DNA of 7,721 nt from assembly GCA_016209865.1 (NCBI GenBank), contig JACQVL010000017.1:1-7721 (forward strand), given 5' to 3'. Positions 2-7,721 of the stretch are shown here, one piece after another. The DNA is from Candidatus Latescibacterota bacterium (GTDB taxonomy: Bacteria > JAAXHH01 > JACQVL01). Made by a program: the position numbers and the translations under genes. The notes below the pieces were generated by a model that was given only the letters and a program-made list of their open reading frames with translations, was not told the origin of the DNA and ran no database searches. Position 1 is the stretch's first letter, and every line of letters begins with the position of its first letter.

Positions 2-2578
2 CGGGCCGGCACGCCGTTTCTGACGTCCCAGGGGGAGATGGATATCCGGTTTCTCACGCTGGGGGCGGAAGAGAGACAGCCGGAAGACATCGGAGCGCTC
101 AGATTGCAGAGCGTCAATGGCCCTCCTGTGCTTCTCCGGGACGTGGCCGACGTTCGCCTGGATGAGGGGGAGGGCAACATCGTCCGCTTCAACCAGGAAC
201 GACAGGTTCAGATCAGGTACGACTTCACTGAGCAGGTCCGACAATCTCAAACCAGTCTCGACCGGGCTGAAGCGCAAATCGCACAGCTCGTGGCGACGTT
301 CCGGCTTCCCGAAGGGTTCATCCTCGAGCCCATCGAACCGGAAGACGAACAGACGGTCTACTACTGGATGTTCGGCATCGGGGTTCTGCTCATCTATATG
401 TTCCTGGCGTCCCAGTTCGAGTCGCTGCTCAGTCCTCTGGTGATCTTAGGCACCGTCCCGACCGCCATCATCGGCGCCTCCTGGGCGCTCATGCTGAGCG
501 GCACCGCGTTGTCGCTCGGCGAGGGTGCTCCCATGGCGCTGCTCGGCCTGATCGTGCTGCTCGGCATCGTCGTCAACAACGGCATCATCCTGATCGACCG
601 CATCGCGGTTCTGCGCCGGCGGCAGGACTACCGCTGGCAGCGAGCGGTGTTGACGGCGAGTCAGCGGCGAGTCCGCCCGATCGTGATGACGTCGGTCACG
701 ACGATGTTGGGCGTCCTGCCCCTGGCCTTGAAACAGGGGACGGAACTGGAACTATGGCCGCCGTTTGCCATCACCATCTTAGGCGGTCTGGCGGTCTCGA
801 CGTTCTCAACCCTGATTTTCATCCCGGTGTTGTATGTGGGACTCGAACAGACGCGCGCCTGGTGCAGGCAGATCGGCACGGCGGGCCTGGTGGCTGGCAC
901 GGCCGCCGCCATCCTGGAACTCGTCTGGCTGTATCAGCAGTACCCGAGCAAGCTGTACGTCGGCCTGCTTGCCCTCCCGGCCTGGTTTCTGAACCTCGGC
1001 TTTGCGTATGGCATCAAGCGGTACCGAACGATCAGCCAGGAAAAGGTGCGACCGACGGACCACATCCTCGGCATACGGATCAGCAACCTCACCAAAGTCT
1101 ACGGCACGCCGGGACGGTTTCGGCGGGACTGGCGGAAACAACGCAGGCGGACAGCGGCTGCGGTCCGGAAGGGCGGCATCCCCTGGACGGCGCATGACGT
1201 CATGAACGGCGCGATCTGGCTGGGGACCGGCGGACTGCTGATGGCGTACCTGCATACCGTGGCGGATCACTCGTTCTGGGTCGTGTTGCTGACGCTGCTC
1301 ACCTTAGGCTGGCTGTTCGGCGTCCGCGAACTCTGGTATGCGTTCCGGTTTGTGAAAGGGCGTCCCCCGGCGCGGACAACGGGACGATGGTGGCGCCGGC
1401 GGGTTCCGTTCAAGTCGTTCAGGCTTTCGCCGTCGGAGCACGACAGGCCGGTGACGCCCCTGGATATGCCGAGACGCGGCGGTCTCTGGTTTGCCCTGCT
1501 CTGTGTCGGCTACCTGCACCTCCGCTTGAACATCCCCGGCCTGACCATTGCCGCCGGCCTGATCAGCCTGTTCTGCTACCAGCTCCACCGGATCGGACGC
1601 CACATCGAACAGGGACGCATCAACCCCGAACAGCCTGCCGGCCGTCTTCGCAAGCTGAAACGGGTTGTCTACAGCCTGGTGCGCAGCCTTCCGGTCATCC
1701 GTCCGCCCGATCTCGAAGTCACGGCGCTGCGAGGCGTCAACCTCGATATCGGGCCGGGCATGTTCGGCCTGCTCGGTCCGAACGGCGCGGGAAAAACCAC
1801 CCTCATGCGCATCCTGGTGGGGGTTCTGAACCAGGACAGGGGCAGCATCTTCATCAACGGCCGGAAGCTGGATGACGAACGGGAGGTGTTCCATGCGGCA
1901 ATCGGCTATCTCCCGCAGGGGTTCGGCCTGTACGAGACGATGACGCCGTATGCCTATCTGGAGAACCACGCGCTCATCAACGGCATCTACGAACCCGCCG
2001 TCCGACAACGCCTGATCGAGGACGTCCTGCACGGCGTCGGGTTGTGGGACCGGCGCCATGACCGGATCAACACTTTTTCCGGAGGCATGAAGCAACGGGT
2101 GGGCATCGCACAGACGCTGCTTCACCTGCCCCAGATCATCGTCGTCGATGAACCGACGGTCGGCCTCGACCCCCGGGAACGCATTCGTTTCCGCAACCTG
2201 TTAGGGGAGCTTGCGAAAGACCGCATCGTCGTCTTCAGCACGCACATCGTTGAAGACGTCGCGTCCACCTGTCATGATCTCGCCGTCCTGTTCGGCGGAG
2301 AAGTCCTCTACCGCGGTTCACCGGAAACGCTCATCCGCCGGGCGGAGGAGAAGGTCTACGAGACCGTGGTTCCGGAAGATCGGCTGGACGAGTGGCGTCA
2401 ACGCCTTCATATCGTCAACCACAACAAAGTGGAAGGGGGCGTCCGGCTCCGGTTTGTCACAGATTCGCCGGAGACTGGACTCGCGCCGGATCTCGATGCC
2501 CGGCCGGTGACGCCGACGCTCGAAGATGCGTACGTGAATCTGCTCCGGGGAACACAGATGCAGGACACCGAACGATGA
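2..2578 (+). CDS. RND efflux permease C-terminal part fused to an ABC transporter ATPase (5' partial)
   Basis: The frame is open through the left edge, so the true start is outside; residues are numbered from the Met codon at 38. Residues 1-105 resemble the end of the RND periplasmic porter domain. RND TM8-12 follow (about 107-267), with TM10 GIVVNNGIILID (177-188) and the TM11-12 pattern RPIVMTSVTTMLG. Two further hydrophobic segments lie at about 282-299 and 306-325. ABC ATPase sequence begins with IRISNLTKVYG (346-356), is interrupted by about 200 residues with four likely membrane segments (392-409, 412-436, 482-494, 500-515), and resumes at ALRGVNLDI (563). It then carries Walker A GPNGAGKTT (580-588), Q627, signature FSGGMKQR (680-687), Walker B IVVDEP (701-706) and switch His736. 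The C-terminal 70 residues are typical of ABC-2 exporter ATPases. The RND part is expected to be proton-driven and the ATPase to power the permease encoded next. Domain calls are strong; the job of the fusion and its substrate are unknown. Confidence 0.9.
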   Translation, partial: RAGTPFLTSQGEMDIRFLTLGAEERQPEDIGALRLQSVNGPPVLLRDVADVRLDEGEGNIVRFNQERQVQIRYDFTEQVRQSQTSLDRAEAQIAQLVATFRLPEGFILEPIEPEDEQTVYYWMFGIGVLLIYMFLASQFESLLSPLVILGTVPTAIIGASWALMLSGTALSLGEGAPMALLGLIVLLGIVVNNGIILIDRIAVLRRRQDYRWQRAVLTASQRRVRPIVMTSVTTMLGVLPLALKQGTELELWPPFAITILGGLAVSTFSTLIFIPVLYVGLEQTRAWCRQIGTAGLVAGTAAAILELVWLYQQYPSKLYVGLLALPAWFLNLGFAYGIKRYRTISQEKVRPTDHILGIRISNLTKVYGTPGRFRRDWRKQRRRTAAAVRKGGIPWTAHDVMNGAIWLGTGGLLMAYLHTVADHSFWVVLLTLLTLGWLFGVRELWYAFRFVKGRPPARTTGRWWRRRVPFKSFRLSPSEHDRPVTPLDMPRRGGLWFALLCVGYLHLRLNIPGLTIAAGLISLFCYQLHRIGRHIEQGRINPEQPAGRLRKLKRVVYSLVRSLPVIRPPDLEVTALRGVNLDIGPGMFGLLGPNGAGKTTLMRILVGVLNQDRGSIFINGRKLDDEREVFHAAIGYLPQGFGLYETMTPYAYLENHALINGIYEPAVRQRLIEDVLHGVGLWDRRHDRINTFSGGMKQRVGIAQTLLHLPQIIVVDEPTVGLDPRERIRFRNLLGELAKDRIVVFSTHIVEDVASTCHDLAVLFGGEVLYRGSPETLIRRAEEKVYETVVPEDRLDEWRQRLHIVNHNKVEGGVRLRFVTDSPETGLAPDLDARPVTPTLEDAYVNLLRGTQMQDTER

Positions 2579-3333
2579 GCACCCCCTCTTTTCAACCGTT
2601 CCGGCAACTACGTCGCAGGGAGCAACTCGGCACGGCATGGACGGTCTTCCGGCTCCAGACCCAATTGATTTTTTCTCAACGCGTCGTCTGGTTCCTGAGC
2701 GCCATCCTGCTCTATCTCGGCATTCTGTATGCGGTGAATTACCGTCTCGCCATGAATGACCGCATGGACCTGGAGACGATCTATCTTATGGTCATGACCA
2801 TGCCGCTGCTCGTCCTGACGCTCTATCTGCACATGCAGGTCATCATCACTGAGAAGGAACAGCGCACGCTGGAAGTGATGTTCACCACCGCCGGTTCCCG
2901 GCACAAGGTCTGGTTGGTGCGGCTGGGCACGCTGAACGCCCTGCTCTGGCTGATGAGTGTGGGCATGAGTCTGCTGGTGTTCTTCACGTTCGCGGATTTT
3001 TCGATTCTCGGCATGGCGTGCAGCGTGTACGCGACGGTCTTTCTCGTCGGCAGCCTGACGCTGTTCTTCGCGGTGCGCCTGCGCAGCAGCCTCGGTGCCG
3101 GTATGGTCACGGCGCTCGTGCTCCTCTTGCATACGTTCAGCGCCGACATTTTCCATTATAATAGGACCCGGTATTTCCTCTTCTTCAACCCGTACGATAT
3201 CCCCAATCAGATCGACCCGCGCACGTGGGACATCTGGGCGTGGCAGAATCGAATCGGTGTCATGATCATCGGCCTCCTGCTGCTGTTTTTCGCGCTACGC
3301 AGTCTGGAGCACCGGGATCGCCTGCTGCGGTAA
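2575..3333 (+). CDS. ABC-2 type transporter permease
   Basis: This 252-residue integral membrane protein has about six hydrophobic segments (roughly 37-55, 69-91, 116-138, 143-166, 172-190, 225-241). The conserved cytoplasmic stretch after the second segment, EKEQRTLEVMFTTAGSR (93-109), matches the ABC-2 permease pattern in which an E-R/Q-x-x-TLE motif precedes a coupling helix. The frame is open further upstream to 2392, inside the preceding gene, but the ATG at 2575 overlaps that gene's stop as ATGA and gives a normal amphipathic N-terminus, so it is the chosen start. The overlap implies translational coupling with the RND-ABC fusion, whose ATPase part should be its motor. Family ABC-2 members export drugs, polysaccharides or lipids, or act in maturation systems such as NosFY. 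Nothing here identifies the cargo. Confidence 0.9.
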   Translation: MSTPSFQPFRQLRRREQLGTAWTVFRLQTQLIFSQRVVWFLSAILLYLGILYAVNYRLAMNDRMDLETIYLMVMTMPLLVLTLYLHMQVIITEKEQRTLEVMFTTAGSRHKVWLVRLGTLNALLWLMSVGMSLLVFFTFADFSILGMACSVYATVFLVGSLTLFFAVRLRSSLGAGMVTALVLLLHTFSADIFHYNRTRYFLFFNPYDIPNQIDPRTWDIWAWQNRIGVMIIGLLLLFFALRSLEHRDRLLR

Positions 3334-3446: not shown

Positions 3447-4112
3447 ATGACTGATCAACAGTCGGTCGAACACCTGTGGCAGGATGGCTATCTCCTGATC
3501 CGGGGCGCCTTGCCGCCCGATCAGTTGGCGCGAATCCAGGCCGCTCACGACCGGATGGGCGAGCCGGACCGGATCATTCCCGACGGCAACCACGGGTACA
3601 ATAACCTGTTAGACAAGGACCCTGTTTTTGCCGAACTCGTCCGCCATCCGGCGGTCGATGGGGTTTTAACCGGACTGTTAGGCGCCGGGTATGCTTTCTA
3701 CCGGATCGGCGGCCTCAAGACCGTGGTGGCGTACTCCCAGCCGTGGCACTGGGACGATGTCCGATGGATCCAGTATTGTACGCTCGCCATCGATCAACGC
3801 CCGGAAAACCCACCACCCGTCGCGGCCCATACCACCTTCTATCTCGATTCCCTTACGCCGGAGACGGGCTTCGTGAAAGTGCCGCCGGGGTCTCATCGCC
3901 GGATCGAGGTGCTGACCGCTCCGGTGTTTCGACCCGACGAGGGGAACGAGCCGTTCGGGCCGGAAGTCCACCTGTACCCGGCGGCGGGGGATGCGATCGT
4001 GTACATCAGTCATCTGCCCCATCGGGGGGTGAATTTCAAGCCGGACATGCAGCGGCGTCTCGTGGTGGCTCTGTACGGGCCTCCCGGCACGCAGGAAGGG
4101 GGGACGTACTGA
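3447..4112 (+). CDS. Phytanoyl-CoA dioxygenase (PhyH) family Fe(II)/2-oxoglutarate oxygenase
   Basis: This 221-residue soluble protein has PhyH family landmarks: an N-terminal helix-plus-strand start (QDGYLLIRGAL, 12-22), the iron-binding H-x-D pair in PWHWDDVRW (His101, Asp103), the PGSHR turn (147-151), and a distal strand beginning GDAIVYISHLPHRG (181-194). His192 is the likely third iron ligand, with Arg203 or Arg204 available for the 2-oxoglutarate carboxylate. Members oxidise an unactivated C-H bond using Fe(II), O2 and 2-oxoglutarate, giving succinate and CO2. Known substrates range from phytanoyl-CoA to ectoine and antibiotic intermediates, so the name does not define the substrate. 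At 221 residues it is shorter than many PhyH proteins (250-300) but keeps the full motif set. It opens the enzyme cassette, with its own promoter and ribosome binding site. Confidence 0.85.
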   Translation: MTDQQSVEHLWQDGYLLIRGALPPDQLARIQAAHDRMGEPDRIIPDGNHGYNNLLDKDPVFAELVRHPAVDGVLTGLLGAGYAFYRIGGLKTVVAYSQPWHWDDVRWIQYCTLAIDQRPENPPPVAAHTTFYLDSLTPETGFVKVPPGSHRRIEVLTAPVFRPDEGNEPFGPEVHLYPAAGDAIVYISHLPHRGVNFKPDMQRRLVVALYGPPGTQEGGTY

Positions 4113-4137
4113 TTGCGGATTAACGCATAGAAAGGGT

Positions 4138-4165
4138 TGTCATTCCCGCGAAAGCGGGAATCCAG
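4138..4165. repeat. REP-like dispersed palindromic repeat (GAAA-loop hairpin)
   Basis: ATTCCCGC (4142-4149) and GCGGGAAT (4154-4161) form a perfect 8-bp stem around the tetraloop GAAA, flanked by TGTC on the left and CCAG on the right. This matches the widespread intergenic repeat whose reverse-strand translation reads WIPAFAGMT, a familiar spurious peptide in bacterial annotation. It lies between the PhyH and amidohydrolase genes. It may act as an mRNA-stabilising or attenuating hairpin; there is no U-run, so it is not a classical terminator. Its copy number in the genome cannot be seen from this window. Confidence 0.8.
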
Positions 4166-4189
4166 TTATGCTCTATGGCCAAGGAGAAC

Positions 4190-4198
4190 TGGTATAAA
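4190..4198 (+). promoter_or_regulatory. Possible extended -10 promoter upstream of the amidohydrolase gene
   Basis: TGG immediately precedes TATAAA (4193-4198), matching the extended -10 pattern TGnTATAAT. No good -35 box is present at 17 bases, which extended -10 promoters can tolerate. Transcription would start about 23 bases before the amidohydrolase ATG. It lies just after the REP-like hairpin, so the last two enzyme genes may be transcribed separately from PhyH. This is a prediction from motif alone. Confidence 0.35.
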
Positions 4199-4227
4199 CA
4201 CCATTTTCCTGCAAGATGGGAGGCTCT

Positions 4228-5049
4228 ATGACTATAGTCGATACCCATGCTCATCTCGACTCGCCGGATGAAGTGCGCTACCCCAAAGCCCCCAACCCGC
4301 TCCGTCCGCCCCCTGGAAAGGGCACGCTCGAGCACCTGCGCGAGGAAGTGCGGGTCAACCAGGTTGCCCGCGTGGTGCTTGTCCAAACCGGAAGTTACTA
4401 TCGCTTCGATAACCGCCTGACGGTGGACACGGCCAACGCCAACCGGGACTGGACGACCGGGGTGTGTACCCTCGATCCCTTCGACGCCGGGAGTCCAGCT
4501 CTTATCACGCAGTATGTCCCTACCAGCAACATCCGTGGTCTCCGGTTCGGGCCCACGCCGGGCTGCACGCCCATCTTTGGCCATGAGGGCCATCAGCGTC
4601 TCTGGGAAGCGGGGGCGCGTCTCGGCCTCGTCCTCTGCGTCCTCATCAATATTGAAAGCGCGGGGGAGCTGGCCGGTCTCCTCCAGCGGTTCCCCGACAC
4701 GCCGGTCGTGCTCGATCACTGCATGGGCCTGCGGGCGGGCGGGCACGACACGCTGCGCGTCGTCTGTGACTTCGCTCGCTTTCCCAACGTGTACGCGAAG
4801 CTGACGTTCGTGGTCGGCGGCTCCGATGAACCGTATCCGTTCCGGGACATGCACGACCTCGTCCATCGGGTCATCGAGGCGTACGGCCCAGACCGGTGCA
4901 TGTGGGGTAGCGCGTTTCCGTGCGAACTCTGGTGTCCGAAGGTGACCTACGAACAACATCTCCGGCTGTTCACCCAGGAGATCCCGTTGGAAGCGCCGAT
5001 CCGGCAGGCCATCCTGAGTGACACCCCGATGCGTCTCTGGTTTTCCTAA
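4228..5049 (+). CDS. Amidohydrolase family 2 (TIM-barrel metal-dependent hydrolase/decarboxylase-like)
   Basis: This 273-residue protein belongs to the amidohydrolase-2 group, which includes ACMSD, gamma-resorcylate decarboxylase and LigI-type lactonases. The N-terminal metal motif DTHAHL gives His7 and His9; NIRGLRFG (101-108) is the usual G-x-R strand; VVLDHCMG (160-167) supplies His164. The last barrel motif, normally GSDxP with a catalytic or metal-binding Asp, reads GSAFP (227-231), so the Asp is Ala229. The closing ILSDTPMRLW (262-271) matches the family's C-terminal helix. An upstream ATG at 4216 is in frame, but GGGAGG (4218-4223) sits four bases before the ATG at 4228 and the family normally begins two to five residues before D-x-H, so 4228 is chosen. 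The next gene starts 23 bases downstream, implying co-transcription. The substrate is unknown, and the missing Asp makes ordinary hydrolysis uncertain. Confidence 0.87.
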   Translation: MTIVDTHAHLDSPDEVRYPKAPNPLRPPPGKGTLEHLREEVRVNQVARVVLVQTGSYYRFDNRLTVDTANANRDWTTGVCTLDPFDAGSPALITQYVPTSNIRGLRFGPTPGCTPIFGHEGHQRLWEAGARLGLVLCVLINIESAGELAGLLQRFPDTPVVLDHCMGLRAGGHDTLRVVCDFARFPNVYAKLTFVVGGSDEPYPFRDMHDLVHRVIEAYGPDRCMWGSAFPCELWCPKVTYEQHLRLFTQEIPLEAPIRQAILSDTPMRLWFS

Positions 5050-5056
5050 CCGGAAT

Positions 5057-5062
5057 AGGAGG
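5057..5062 (+). promoter_or_regulatory. Ribosome binding site of the MR/MLE family gene
   Basis: AGGAGG, a perfect anti-Shine-Dalgarno match, ends ten bases before the ATG at 5073 and lies within the 23-base gap after the amidohydrolase stop. It supports the start choice and efficient translation. Confidence 0.7.
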
Positions 5063-5072
5063 GCAGCAGCGT

Positions 5073-6146
5073 ATGGTGATCACCGACGTCAAGCTCTTCC
5101 CGATTCGCACTCCGCGCGAGATCGGGACGTTCTCTCAGCATGTCATCGTGAAAATCCATACCGATGACGGGGTGACCGGGATCGGCGAGATGTCCGACGT
5201 CCGGGATACTTCAGCAGTGCCCGACATCCAGGACCTGGAGCGACAGCTCACGCAGCAACTGAAAGGGACGGACCCGCTCGACTCCGGCCCTGGCCGGCGA
5301 ACAGTCCGCCGGTACGGCATCGCCATCGCAGCCGGGGTAGAGACCGCCCTCTACGACCTCAGGGGGCGCATCTTGGGCGTCCCGGTCTGCTACCTGCTGG
5401 GGGGGAAATACCGTGACCGCATCCGGGTGTGTTATCCGCTCTTCTCGATGGCAAACGACCCGAGCGGCGAACAGAACGTCGCCCGCGTGGGACGGATGCT
5501 CGACCAGGGGTTCGACCTCTTCCGCTTCTATTGCGGGCCGCACAACTTAGATGCGGATGAACGGGTCCTCCAGGGCGTCCGGCAGACCTACGGCGACCGG
5601 GTGTCGTTCAAGTCGCTCGACATGAGCGGCCAGTTCACCTGGCACGAGGCGGTCAGGGCGGCGAACCGGTTCGAGCAGTATGGGTTCGCGATGGTCGAGA
5701 CGCCCTGCGCCTCGATCGCGGACACCGCGCGGGTGCGGGATCGCATCGGCCTGCTCGTCAGCGAGCACGTCCACACTTTGGAGCGGGCCCGTCTCCTGAT
5801 CGAATGGAAGGCGGCGGATATCTTCAACATCTTAGTGACGGTGGGCGGACTGGAGCATGCGCGGAAGCTGTTCTCGTTCGCAGAGGCGTTCGACATGAAG
5901 ACGCTCATCGGGACGACCCAGGAACTGTCCATCGGGACGGCCGCGCAGGCGCATCTCGGCTGTGCCGTCCCCAACCTGGATTTTCCGAGCGACCCGGTCG
6001 GCGGGCGTCTGTACATGAAGGATGTGGTCGTGAAGCGAGTGGACTACCAGAACGGTTCTCTGTTGCTTCCGGAGGGGCCCGGACTCGGCCTGGAGATCGA
6101 TGACGCGCGCTTGAGCGAGCTGGCGTGCCCTCTCCACGAAGGCTGA
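5073..6146 (+). CDS. Mandelate racemase/muconate lactonizing enzyme family (enolase superfamily) protein
   Basis: This 357-residue protein has the two-domain enolase-superfamily layout: an N-terminal capping domain (about 1-115; VKIHTDDGVTGIGEM, 26-40; ALYDLRGRILGVPVCYLLGG, 92-111) and a C-terminal barrel. The three expected Mg ligands are visible as Asp183 (SLDMSG), Glu209 (VETP) and Glu231 (VSEHV). DIFNILVTVGGLEHARKL (249-266) is the sixth-strand region, and GTTQELSIGTAAQAHL (280-295) resembles the muconate-cycloisomerase subgroup pattern. The usual catalytic bases differ: the K-x-K of the second strand aligns with Arg151-x-Tyr153, the sixth-strand Lys aligns with Ile253, and no seventh-strand His is apparent. 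Relatives abstract a proton alpha to a carboxylate to racemise, dehydrate or cycloisomerise acids. It closely follows the amidohydrolase gene and may process the same compound. Family is certain; reaction is not. Confidence 0.9.
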   Translation: MVITDVKLFPIRTPREIGTFSQHVIVKIHTDDGVTGIGEMSDVRDTSAVPDIQDLERQLTQQLKGTDPLDSGPGRRTVRRYGIAIAAGVETALYDLRGRILGVPVCYLLGGKYRDRIRVCYPLFSMANDPSGEQNVARVGRMLDQGFDLFRFYCGPHNLDADERVLQGVRQTYGDRVSFKSLDMSGQFTWHEAVRAANRFEQYGFAMVETPCASIADTARVRDRIGLLVSEHVHTLERARLLIEWKAADIFNILVTVGGLEHARKLFSFAEAFDMKTLIGTTQELSIGTAAQAHLGCAVPNLDFPSDPVGGRLYMKDVVVKRVDYQNGSLLLPEGPGLGLEIDDARLSELACPLHEG

Positions 6147-6187: not shown

Positions 6188-6566
6188 ATGATCGTGAACG
6201 GTACGAAGCCAGCCATTCCGTCGTGCGTTGAACGTCGCGTGTCAGGCGCAGGAGGCGTGCTTCCAGGCCCTGCGTCCGGGGATCGAAGGACGTGAAGTCG
6301 AAGCACAGGGGAGGCGGATTGTGGAGGCGGCCAACCTGGGACGGTATTTTCTGTACTCAGGGGTGCATAGCGTGGGGGTCATCGAATTTGAACCCCCCAT
6401 CTTCGGGCCGAGCAGTCAGGCCAGACTCAAACCCGACATGATCATCTCTGTCGACATTCCGCTGTTCAACGCCCCCTGGGGCGGTCTGCGCATCGAAGAT
6501 GGGTATCTGATCACGAAGACGAAGGCCGAACGGCTCCATACGACGCCGTATACGATTGAAAAGTAA
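6188..6566 (+). pseudogene. M24 metallopeptidase family (creatinase/Xaa-Pro peptidase-like) gene remnant, internally deleted and frameshifted
   Basis: A well-placed ribosome binding site and ATG at 6188 open a frame of only 35 codons (MIVNGTKPAIPS..., stop at 6293). M24-like sequence lies in another frame, readable from about 6198 or from a TTG at 6228 to 6566. It shows A-C-x-x-Q-A-L-R-P-G, the metal-ligand region GVHSVGVIEFEPP (45-57 counted from 6228), DMIISVDIPLF (70-80) and GGLRIEDGYL (85-94). This is about the last 110 residues of a pita-bread fold that normally needs over 220. The two metal-binding Asp residues that precede this region, and any N-terminal domain, are absent, so activity is not expected. 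The likely history is an internal deletion joining the first codons to the 3' part. It sits 41 bases after the MR/MLE gene, as a former operon member. A short active paralog starting at TTG 6228 is unlikely. Confidence 0.75.
6363..6544 (+). repeat. Direct repeat copy 1 (M24 3' region)
   Basis: This 182-base segment within the M24 remnant matches 7540-7721 at 172 of 182 positions without gaps. The match begins at the GTG of V-H-S-V and continues to the window edge, so the true repeat may extend further right. Sequence before the match is unrelated in the two copies. Confidence 0.95.
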
Positions 6567-6684: not shown

Positions 6685-6951
6685 ATGACGCTCGTGATTG
6701 ATCTGACCTCGGAGGTCGAAGACCGCTTGCGCCACGCGGCCATCCAGCAGGGGATGACCGAGGAGGAGTACGCGCTTCAACTCATCGAAGATGGCCTGTC
6801 TATGACCCTGACCACAGGTGCAGCTCTCATCGCCCGCTGGGAGCAGGAAGGCGTCCTCGGAGCCTGGGCTGATCGAACGGACATTCCGGATAGTGCGGCC
6901 TATGCCCGAACCCTCCGGCAACAAGCCGAAACCCGCGCCTGGGAGGGTTGA
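6685..6951 (+). CDS. Antitoxin of a VapBC-type toxin-antitoxin module
   Basis: This 88-residue protein starts with a strand-helix-helix pattern (MTLVIDL, then EVEDRLRHAAIQQGMTEEEYA, about 2-40) resembling ribbon-helix-helix antitoxins, in which the N-terminus binds operator DNA as a dimer. The C-terminal half (W52-E-Q-E-G-V-L-G-A-W61, then DRTDIPDSAAYARTLRQQAE, 63-82) is the kind of extended tail that wraps a PIN toxin. Its TGA shares one base with the ATG of the downstream PIN-domain gene, the classic antitoxin-first order ensuring coupled synthesis. Modules of this sort are usually autoregulated by the antitoxin-toxin complex; no palindromic operator was identified with confidence. The role is inferred mainly from position and toxin partner; the precise antitoxin family was not settled. 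Confidence 0.8.
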   Translation: MTLVIDLTSEVEDRLRHAAIQQGMTEEEYALQLIEDGLSMTLTTGAALIARWEQEGVLGAWADRTDIPDSAAYARTLRQQAETRAWEG

Positions 6952-7331
6952 TGCGCCTGCTGGATACCGATATCCTTATCGACCTGCTCCGTCGTCATCC
7001 GCCTGCAGTAGCCTGGTTCGCGACCTTGACCGAAGTCCCTGGTGTTCCGGGATTGGTCGTCATGGAACTGATCCAGGGCTGCACCAACGCCGCGGATCTG
7101 CGCGCCGTCACCAAGCTGGTCAAGCCGCTCCGGGTCGTCTGGCCGACCGAGGCGGATTGTCGGCGGGCGCTGGCGGATGTGACCCAGTATCGTCTCGCCC
7201 ACCACTTGGGGGCGCTGGATGCGTTGATCGGGGCGTGCACCATAGGATTGGGTGCGACCCTCTGCACGTTCAACGTGAAGCACTACCAGGTGATGGTCGG
7301 GCTTGCCACCGAGCAACCCTACACGCGTTGA
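6951..7331 (+). CDS. vapC: PIN-domain toxin, VapC-like ribonuclease
   Basis: This 126-residue protein fits the VapC length. The PIN acidic centre is visible: Asp5 in MRLLDTDILIDLL, Glu39 in VVMELIQG, Asp90 in LGALDALIGA, and the terminal T-x-N/D motif as TFNVKHYQ (106-113) with Asn108. VapC enzymes are Mg-dependent endoribonucleases that cut tRNA or rRNA to arrest growth and are inhibited by the cognate antitoxin. The ATG at 6951 overlaps the antitoxin stop by one base and follows GGGAGG (6941-6946) at four bases. A TTG one codon upstream is in frame but adds nothing. All key residues are intact and the gene seems functional, unlike the flanking M24 fragments. Confidence 0.9.
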   Translation: MRLLDTDILIDLLRRHPPAVAWFATLTEVPGVPGLVVMELIQGCTNAADLRAVTKLVKPLRVVWPTEADCRRALADVTQYRLAHHLGALDALIGACTIGLGATLCTFNVKHYQVMVGLATEQPYTR

Positions 7332-7539: not shown

Positions 7540-7721
7540 GTGCACAGCGTGGGAGTCATCGAATTTAAACCCCCCATCTTCGGGCCGAGCAGTCAGGCCA
7601 GACTCAAACCCGACATGATCATCTCTGTCGACATTCCACTGTTCAACGCCCCCTGGGATGGTCTGTGTATTGAAGACGGGTATCTGATCACGAAGACGAA
7701 GGCCGAACGGCTCCATACGAC
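7540..7721 (+). pseudogene. Second M24 metallopeptidase 3' fragment, direct repeat copy 2 (runs off right edge)
   Basis: This segment repeats 6363-6544 with ten substitutions in 182 bases and no gaps. Three substitutions change conserved-looking residues: the second Glu of EFEPP becomes Lys (codon 7567-7569), the first Gly of the GGLRIED motif becomes Asp, and its Arg becomes Cys, giving DGLCIED. Sequence upstream of 7540 shows no M24 similarity, so the fragment lacks at least half of the catalytic domain. It is probably a decaying duplicate. Its 3' end is outside the window. Confidence 0.75.

Follow-up and report, generated by a model that had tools for sequence, protein, structure and literature searches.

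RND pumps and ABC exporters are regarded as distinct classes, each with its own energy source. HAE-1-type tripartite pumps such as AcrAB-TolC and MdtABC combine an RND permease with a HlyD-type adaptor and an OEP channel. The MdtABC operon codes for two paralogous RNDs, and MdtBC is named as a rare heterotrimer in a large review of tripartite systems (PMC8277102). MacAB-TolC is an ATP-driven transporter that also works through an adaptor and TolC (PMC5985334). In Mycobacterium, the type V ABC-2 exporter DrrABC, which contains two different permeases, and the RND protein MmpL7 are needed for one export path, that of PDIM; MmpL7 may serve as a scaffold alongside DrrABC, although there is no direct evidence of a complex (PMC11539658).

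The locus described here likewise codes for an RND permease, a HlyD-type adaptor and an OEP channel, and for two RNDs as in MdtABC. In contrast to HAE-1-type pumps, one of its RNDs bears an ABC ATPase and six additional predicted transmembrane (TM) helices, the cluster includes a putative ABC-2 exporter, and the residues equivalent to D408 and K940 of AcrB are Asn. MacAB-TolC differs in that its NBD is joined to its own ABC permease instead of an RND, and in that it has no RND subunit. As an analogy, DrrABC with MmpL7 is the nearest working system, but its components are encoded by separate genes, its RND is of the MmpL type, and it includes neither an adaptor nor TolC.

The window, the whole stretch of DNA that was analysed, is the 7,721-nt contig JACQVL010000017.1 (C124) of assembly GCA_016209865.1, a MAG of 356 contigs from Candidatus Latescibacterota bacterium. 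The original prediction that an RND permease and an ABC ATPase are joined in one frame holds. Positions 2-2578 of the forward strand read through 858 codons in one frame that contains no stop and is open at its 5' end, where the contig begins. Within this frame, Pfam recognizes both ACR_tran (residues 22-280, profile positions 767-1019 of 1021, E 6.5e-55) and ABC_tran (residues 576-719, E 2.5e-28). Alignment to full-length relatives indicates that approximately 730 N-terminal residues are absent from the window and that the full protein comprises approximately 1,590 residues, close to the predicted 1,600. A search of the organism's own assembly did not find the missing 5' half. The solved chains nearest to the RND part in the window are ZneA, AcrB, and MexB. 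The fusion and the gene that follows it divide into these parts:

2..853, + strand: C-terminal part of the RND permease (end of the porter domain and TM8-TM12), truncated at its 5' side by the contig edge; from ACR_tran and family-averaged hydropathy.
854..1072, + strand: first part of the linker with two added predicted helices, TM13 (about residues 293-311) and TM14 (about 321-339); from hydropathy averaged over 40 fusions.
1073..1105, + strand: putative first strand with A-loop (IRISNLTKVYG) of the ABC ATPase, detached from the remainder of the domain; from a motif matrix, with I358, K365, and Y367 conserved to at least 90%.
1106..1711, + strand: insert within the ABC ATPase with four predicted helices (TM15-TM18); from hydropathy, conservation, and the motif matrix.
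1718..2575, + strand: remainder of the ABC ATPase, from Walker A to the switch His, with a conserved C-terminal EDAY motif; from ABC_tran and motifs in 40 fusions.
2569..3333, + strand: small ABC-2-like permease with six predicted TM helices, which closes the cluster and whose start codon is placed approximately; from a weak ABC2_membrane_3 match (E 0.021).

The ABC ATPase carries the complete motif set that had been claimed for it: Walker A (GPNGAGKT), Q-loop (YLPQ, Q639), signature (FSGGMKQ), Walker B (IIVVDEP, E717), and the switch histidine (H748), all five nearly invariant in 40 fusions. This domain is not contiguous. Hydropathy averaged over the 40 aligned fusions places 18 TM candidates before Walker A, namely the 12 of the RND, two more, and a further four. 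The sequence I-x-I-x-N-L-x-K-x-Y sits between the 14th and the 15th candidate. A motif matrix built from nine stand-alone ABC ATPases, covering their first strand and A-loop, finds its best match in the linker at this same alignment column in 40/40 fusions. The scores are mostly higher than in any of 1,000 shuffles, and the weakest is that of G159 (p 0.028). From this element to Walker A the fusions span 193-256 residues, as compared to about 30-35 in stand-alone relatives, and the four-helix insert occupies the interval. Several positions of the insert are conserved (R375, W377, W406, Y416, W426, G547, Y557, and P564). From these sequence patterns, we read the ATPase as one domain interrupted by a membrane insert. 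Since the number of helices on either side is even in the predicted 18-helix layout, both pieces of the ATPase would be cytoplasmic and the topology consistent. For an ABC ATPase, four membrane helices inserted behind the first strand would be an unusual domain topology.

Linker and insert gave no match in Pfam or the PDB. AlphaFold2, run on the linker and ATPase of the window as a single sequence without alignment, returned a pLDDT of 40. The idea that the six added helices make up a third ABC-2 domain was dropped, as hhalign shows no relation to either ABC-2 permease of the cluster.

By Pfam each part of the protein is ordinary, and by curated models it belongs to no named family, as had been surmised. 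The curated models closest to the fused ATPase are GldA (E 2.8e-48) and DrrA (4.8e-45), with scores well short of the curated cut-offs (for GldA, 165 of 403 bits). Members of these two families are stand-alone ATPases and are not known to carry a membrane insert. Named NCBIfam subfamilies of RNDs also stay below their cut-offs; the best, RND_permease_2, reaches 531 of 1250 bits. We found no RND-ABC fusion in the open-access full text of PMC, and the available part of the review cited above (PMC8277102) yielded neither such a fusion nor an RND-ABC hybrid.

Like the split of the ATPase, the conserved gene cluster around the fusion goes beyond the original prediction. The order is stand-alone ABC ATPase, ABC-2 permease with a degenerate M1-peptidase domain, TolC, adaptor (PAP), RND, fusion, and small ABC-2 permease, and holds in most loci with enough sequence. 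For example, in G205 and G335, genes for OEP (TolC), the HlyD adaptor, and a plain RND precede the fusion, and a small ABC-2-like permease follows. The permease noted earlier behind the fusion in the window is such a small permease; a homologue lies downstream of the fusion in 36/41 loci, and in four of the remaining five the locus runs out at the end of a contig or close to it. It shows six TM peaks, and its matches to Pfam ABC2 models are weak. Upstream of TolC, all 12 of the 12 loci fetched contain the stand-alone ABC ATPase and an ABC-2 permease of about 1,100 residues. The domains of this permease, as assigned in the members from the window's own genome and from G001, include one resembling M1 peptidases and a C terminus of the golvesin type. 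Because HExxH and GxMEN are absent from the members checked, this M1-type permease is probably not an active peptidase. The membrane parts of the two ABC-2 permeases are related at the profile level (hhalign E 3e-5). Exceptions to the arrangement are G455, G457, G461, and G436; in G457 the same genes are arranged divergently. G501 and G486 have no local TolC, and several genes overlap by a few bases or are closely spaced.

The genome of the window contains the other genes of this cluster. Contig C122 holds the ATPase, the M1-type permease, TolC, the adaptor, and the first 648 residues of a plain RND up to the contig edge; HlyD and OEP matches, found in G205 and G335, also occur here. This plain RND groups with the companion RNDs of other clusters, and the window holds the last two genes. 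C122 stops within the plain RND and the window opens partway through the fusion, so these contigs probably adjoin; the gap between them, expected to span about 3.5 kb, would then hold the 5' half of the fusion. The suggestion that RND and ABC parts form one machine or share a tripartite exit is strengthened by the adaptor, the usual TolC, the plain RND, the second ABC ATPase, and the second ABC-2 permease of the cluster.

These genes are inherited together. In the phylum of G205 (82 genomes), 39 genomes have the fusion together with the M1-type permease, 37 have neither, and six are discordant (Fisher p 4e-16, counting full-strength permease matches only). One genome, G013, has the stand-alone ATPase and the M1-type permease, and no fusion was found there. 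Distance matrices of fused RND, fused ATPase, plain RND, small permease, and adaptor from 23 loci correlate at 0.96-0.98, and 0/2,000 permutations exceed 0.63, although shared species history contributes to this correlation. Species history less easily explains G464, which contains two clusters with fusions of different subclades, each accompanied by an RND of the matching subclade. What co-inheritance shows is that the parts belong to one pathway; it does not show that they form a single complex.

The RND tree places the fused halves in one clade (100/100) and the companion RNDs in a second (69/92); by this tree, the RND half of the fusion has a single origin. In the ATPase tree, the stand-alone ATPases of the cluster stand beside the fused ATPases with moderate support. 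The fused ATPases form one group, except for a long-branch intruder (L025) and the frame-broken fusion copy of G070. Duplication of ATPase and RND inside one cluster, followed by fusion, would suit these trees, which do not prove it.

On balance, we favour the reading that the cluster encodes a composite trans-envelope exporter, with the fusion as the central link between a heteromeric ABC-2 exporter and a tripartite RND pump. As its partner in an ABC dimer, the fused ATPase would take either the cluster's stand-alone ATPase or another fused copy. This dimer would drive the small and the M1-like permease as one heteromeric ABC-2 exporter, and ATP would thereby bring the substrate to the periplasmic side. 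The fused RND half and the plain RND would assemble into a mixed trimer docked to the adaptor and TolC. This trimer would then expel the substrate via TolC, either powered by the proton gradient or under the gating control of the tethered ATPase. The symmetry mismatch between an RND trimer and an ABC dimer counts against such an exporter. Two fusions and one plain RND would bring exactly two ATPases; alternatively, a single fusion could pair with the stand-alone ATPase. Two energy inputs, ATP and proton gradient, may exist: the catalytic residues of the ATPase are intact, but the proton relay of the RND is altered (see below). A fusion that is kept across five phyla, clustered with all parts of both systems, constitutes strong genetic evidence that the two can act as a unit. 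The fusion also makes it testable whether ABC and RND transporters form a joint machine, as suggested for DrrABC and MmpL7. If the coupling is true, the cluster would encode a new class of exporter. A more specific version is tentative: ATP hydrolysis and proton gradient may be mechanically coupled, with the membrane-anchored dimer of split ATPases covalently built into the RND trimer, for example one of two fused and one plain RND, which would likewise constitute a new exporter class.

The conserved residues of the RND half bear on how it may be energized. In a full-length relative, the ACR_tran match covers profile positions 1-1019 of 1021 (E 1e-192), and the RND part shows the 12 TM peaks of the RND fold, of which the window contains the C-terminal part only. 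Three residues of the AcrB proton relay, D407 (the TM4 Asp), R971, and T978, are retained in 39/39 fusions. The other two are replaced: D408 is Asn in 38/39 fusions and Ser in one, and K940 is Asn in 39/39. The same relay residues occur in 27 companion RNDs. The complete AcrB-type relay is absent and, because D408 and K940 are Asn in fusions and companions alike, proton coupling of the fusion is not assured. These substitutions would suit a sub-case of the joint machine in which fused and companion RNDs serve as an ATP-gated conduit and all energy comes from ATP. MmpL7, which has no proton relay and is likely a scaffold with DrrABC, provides a parallel (PMC11539658). Against this reading, which we consider rather doubtful, stands the invariance of the TM4 Asp, R971, and T978, and so does the ability of CusA-type RNDs to function with a single TM4 Asp.

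Alternatively, the fusion may only co-localize an ABC-2 exporter and an RND pump and balance their amounts, with each pump running on its own energy source. Consistent with this idea, each module keeps its own conserved residues, and the linker is the least conserved part of the protein. Between the window and its nearest relative, the fused orthologue G001:C610 (other family, same order; a 1,443-aa frame cut by the contig at both ends, 67% identity), identity is 46% in the linker, as compared to 74% in the RND part and 85% in the NBD. However, a simple tether needs no insert that splits the ATPase and carries conserved membrane positions, kept in 40/40 fusions, and the plain RND, being inherited along with the fusion, points to a mixed trimer. 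Two merely tethered pumps therefore appear unlikely.

Codon differences between the window and G001 follow the pattern of a translated gene: in the linker their frequency is 0.66 at third positions versus 0.40 and 0.29 at first and second positions, and RND, linker, and NBD show the same third-position excess. With a profile of the linker (residues 285-575 only, from alignment A2 at first and later from A3 of seven), two domain-wide samplings each gave matches in 9/384 genomes. One match of the first search (G067) contains stops and was discarded as chance. The survey of homologues found the same architecture in 80/236 genomes from five phyla (2/16 in the window's own phylum, 41/82, 5/6, 31/64, and 1/68), and uncut fusion ORFs mostly measure about 1,560-1,610 residues. 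The single-contig genomes G501 and G502 both carry the fusion, in ORFs of 1,575 and 1,566 residues. The window fusion is a real gene and not an assembly error, because the same fusion occurs in these 80 of 236 genomes, including the two single-contig ones. An assembly chimera or read-through of two neighbouring genes, which a MAG of many contigs and a gene cut at a contig edge might suggest, is so improbable as to be negligible, since the identical junction and insert recur in about 80 independent genomes, two of them single-contig, with the codon pattern of a gene. The two particular doubts raised with the original prediction have also been settled: the window frame contains no stop or frameshift at the junction, with only a few scattered genomes broken (G440, G460, and G070), and close homologues are not always encoded by separate genes, as G001:C610 is fused.

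The sister family f3 of the same phylum has the fusion in 0/14 genomes by the linker profile, and its long RND ORFs (about 1,300 residues) do not match this profile. Viral contigs contained no relatives of the fusion, and no plasmid record covered 80% of the linker-plus-ATPase query. A contig search with the whole protein returned only Pseudovibrio ABC ATPases, which match the ATPase part. PADLOC matches are also limited to the ATPase part, so there is no sign of a defence system.

Several individual loci deserve mention. In the sister-family genomes L035 and L036, an adaptor, an RND of about 1,300 residues, and one of about 1,090 stand in tandem, the long RND having about 250 extra residues. 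In G525:C83, the linker match lies inside a frame of 2,326 residues, about 700 more than in other fusions, which may indicate a further domain or merely a stop-free frame. In G440 (L137, about 3990-4250), some 250 bases with a long inverted repeat break the fusion gene just before the first strand of the ATPase. Because the part that follows starts with an ATG of its own, the gene may be a natural fission or a disrupted copy. G460 (L136, about 1550-1718) contains an insert of about 170 bases with stops within the linker, and in G070 (L054, about 6030) the linker frame breaks near G and T runs; in both genomes this may reflect either an error or a real break.

Downstream of the small permease, the window codes on the same strand for a PhyH-type dioxygenase, an amidohydrolase, and an enolase-superfamily enzyme (3447-6146), which were not seen in the cluster elsewhere. 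A direct repeat of 182 nt, 95% identical between its copies at 6363-6544 and 7540-7721, overlaps part of a C-terminal fragment of an M24 peptidase. Between the two copies lie the overlapping ORFs 6685-6951 and 6948-7331 (PIN domain), which resemble a toxin-antitoxin pair of the VapBC type.
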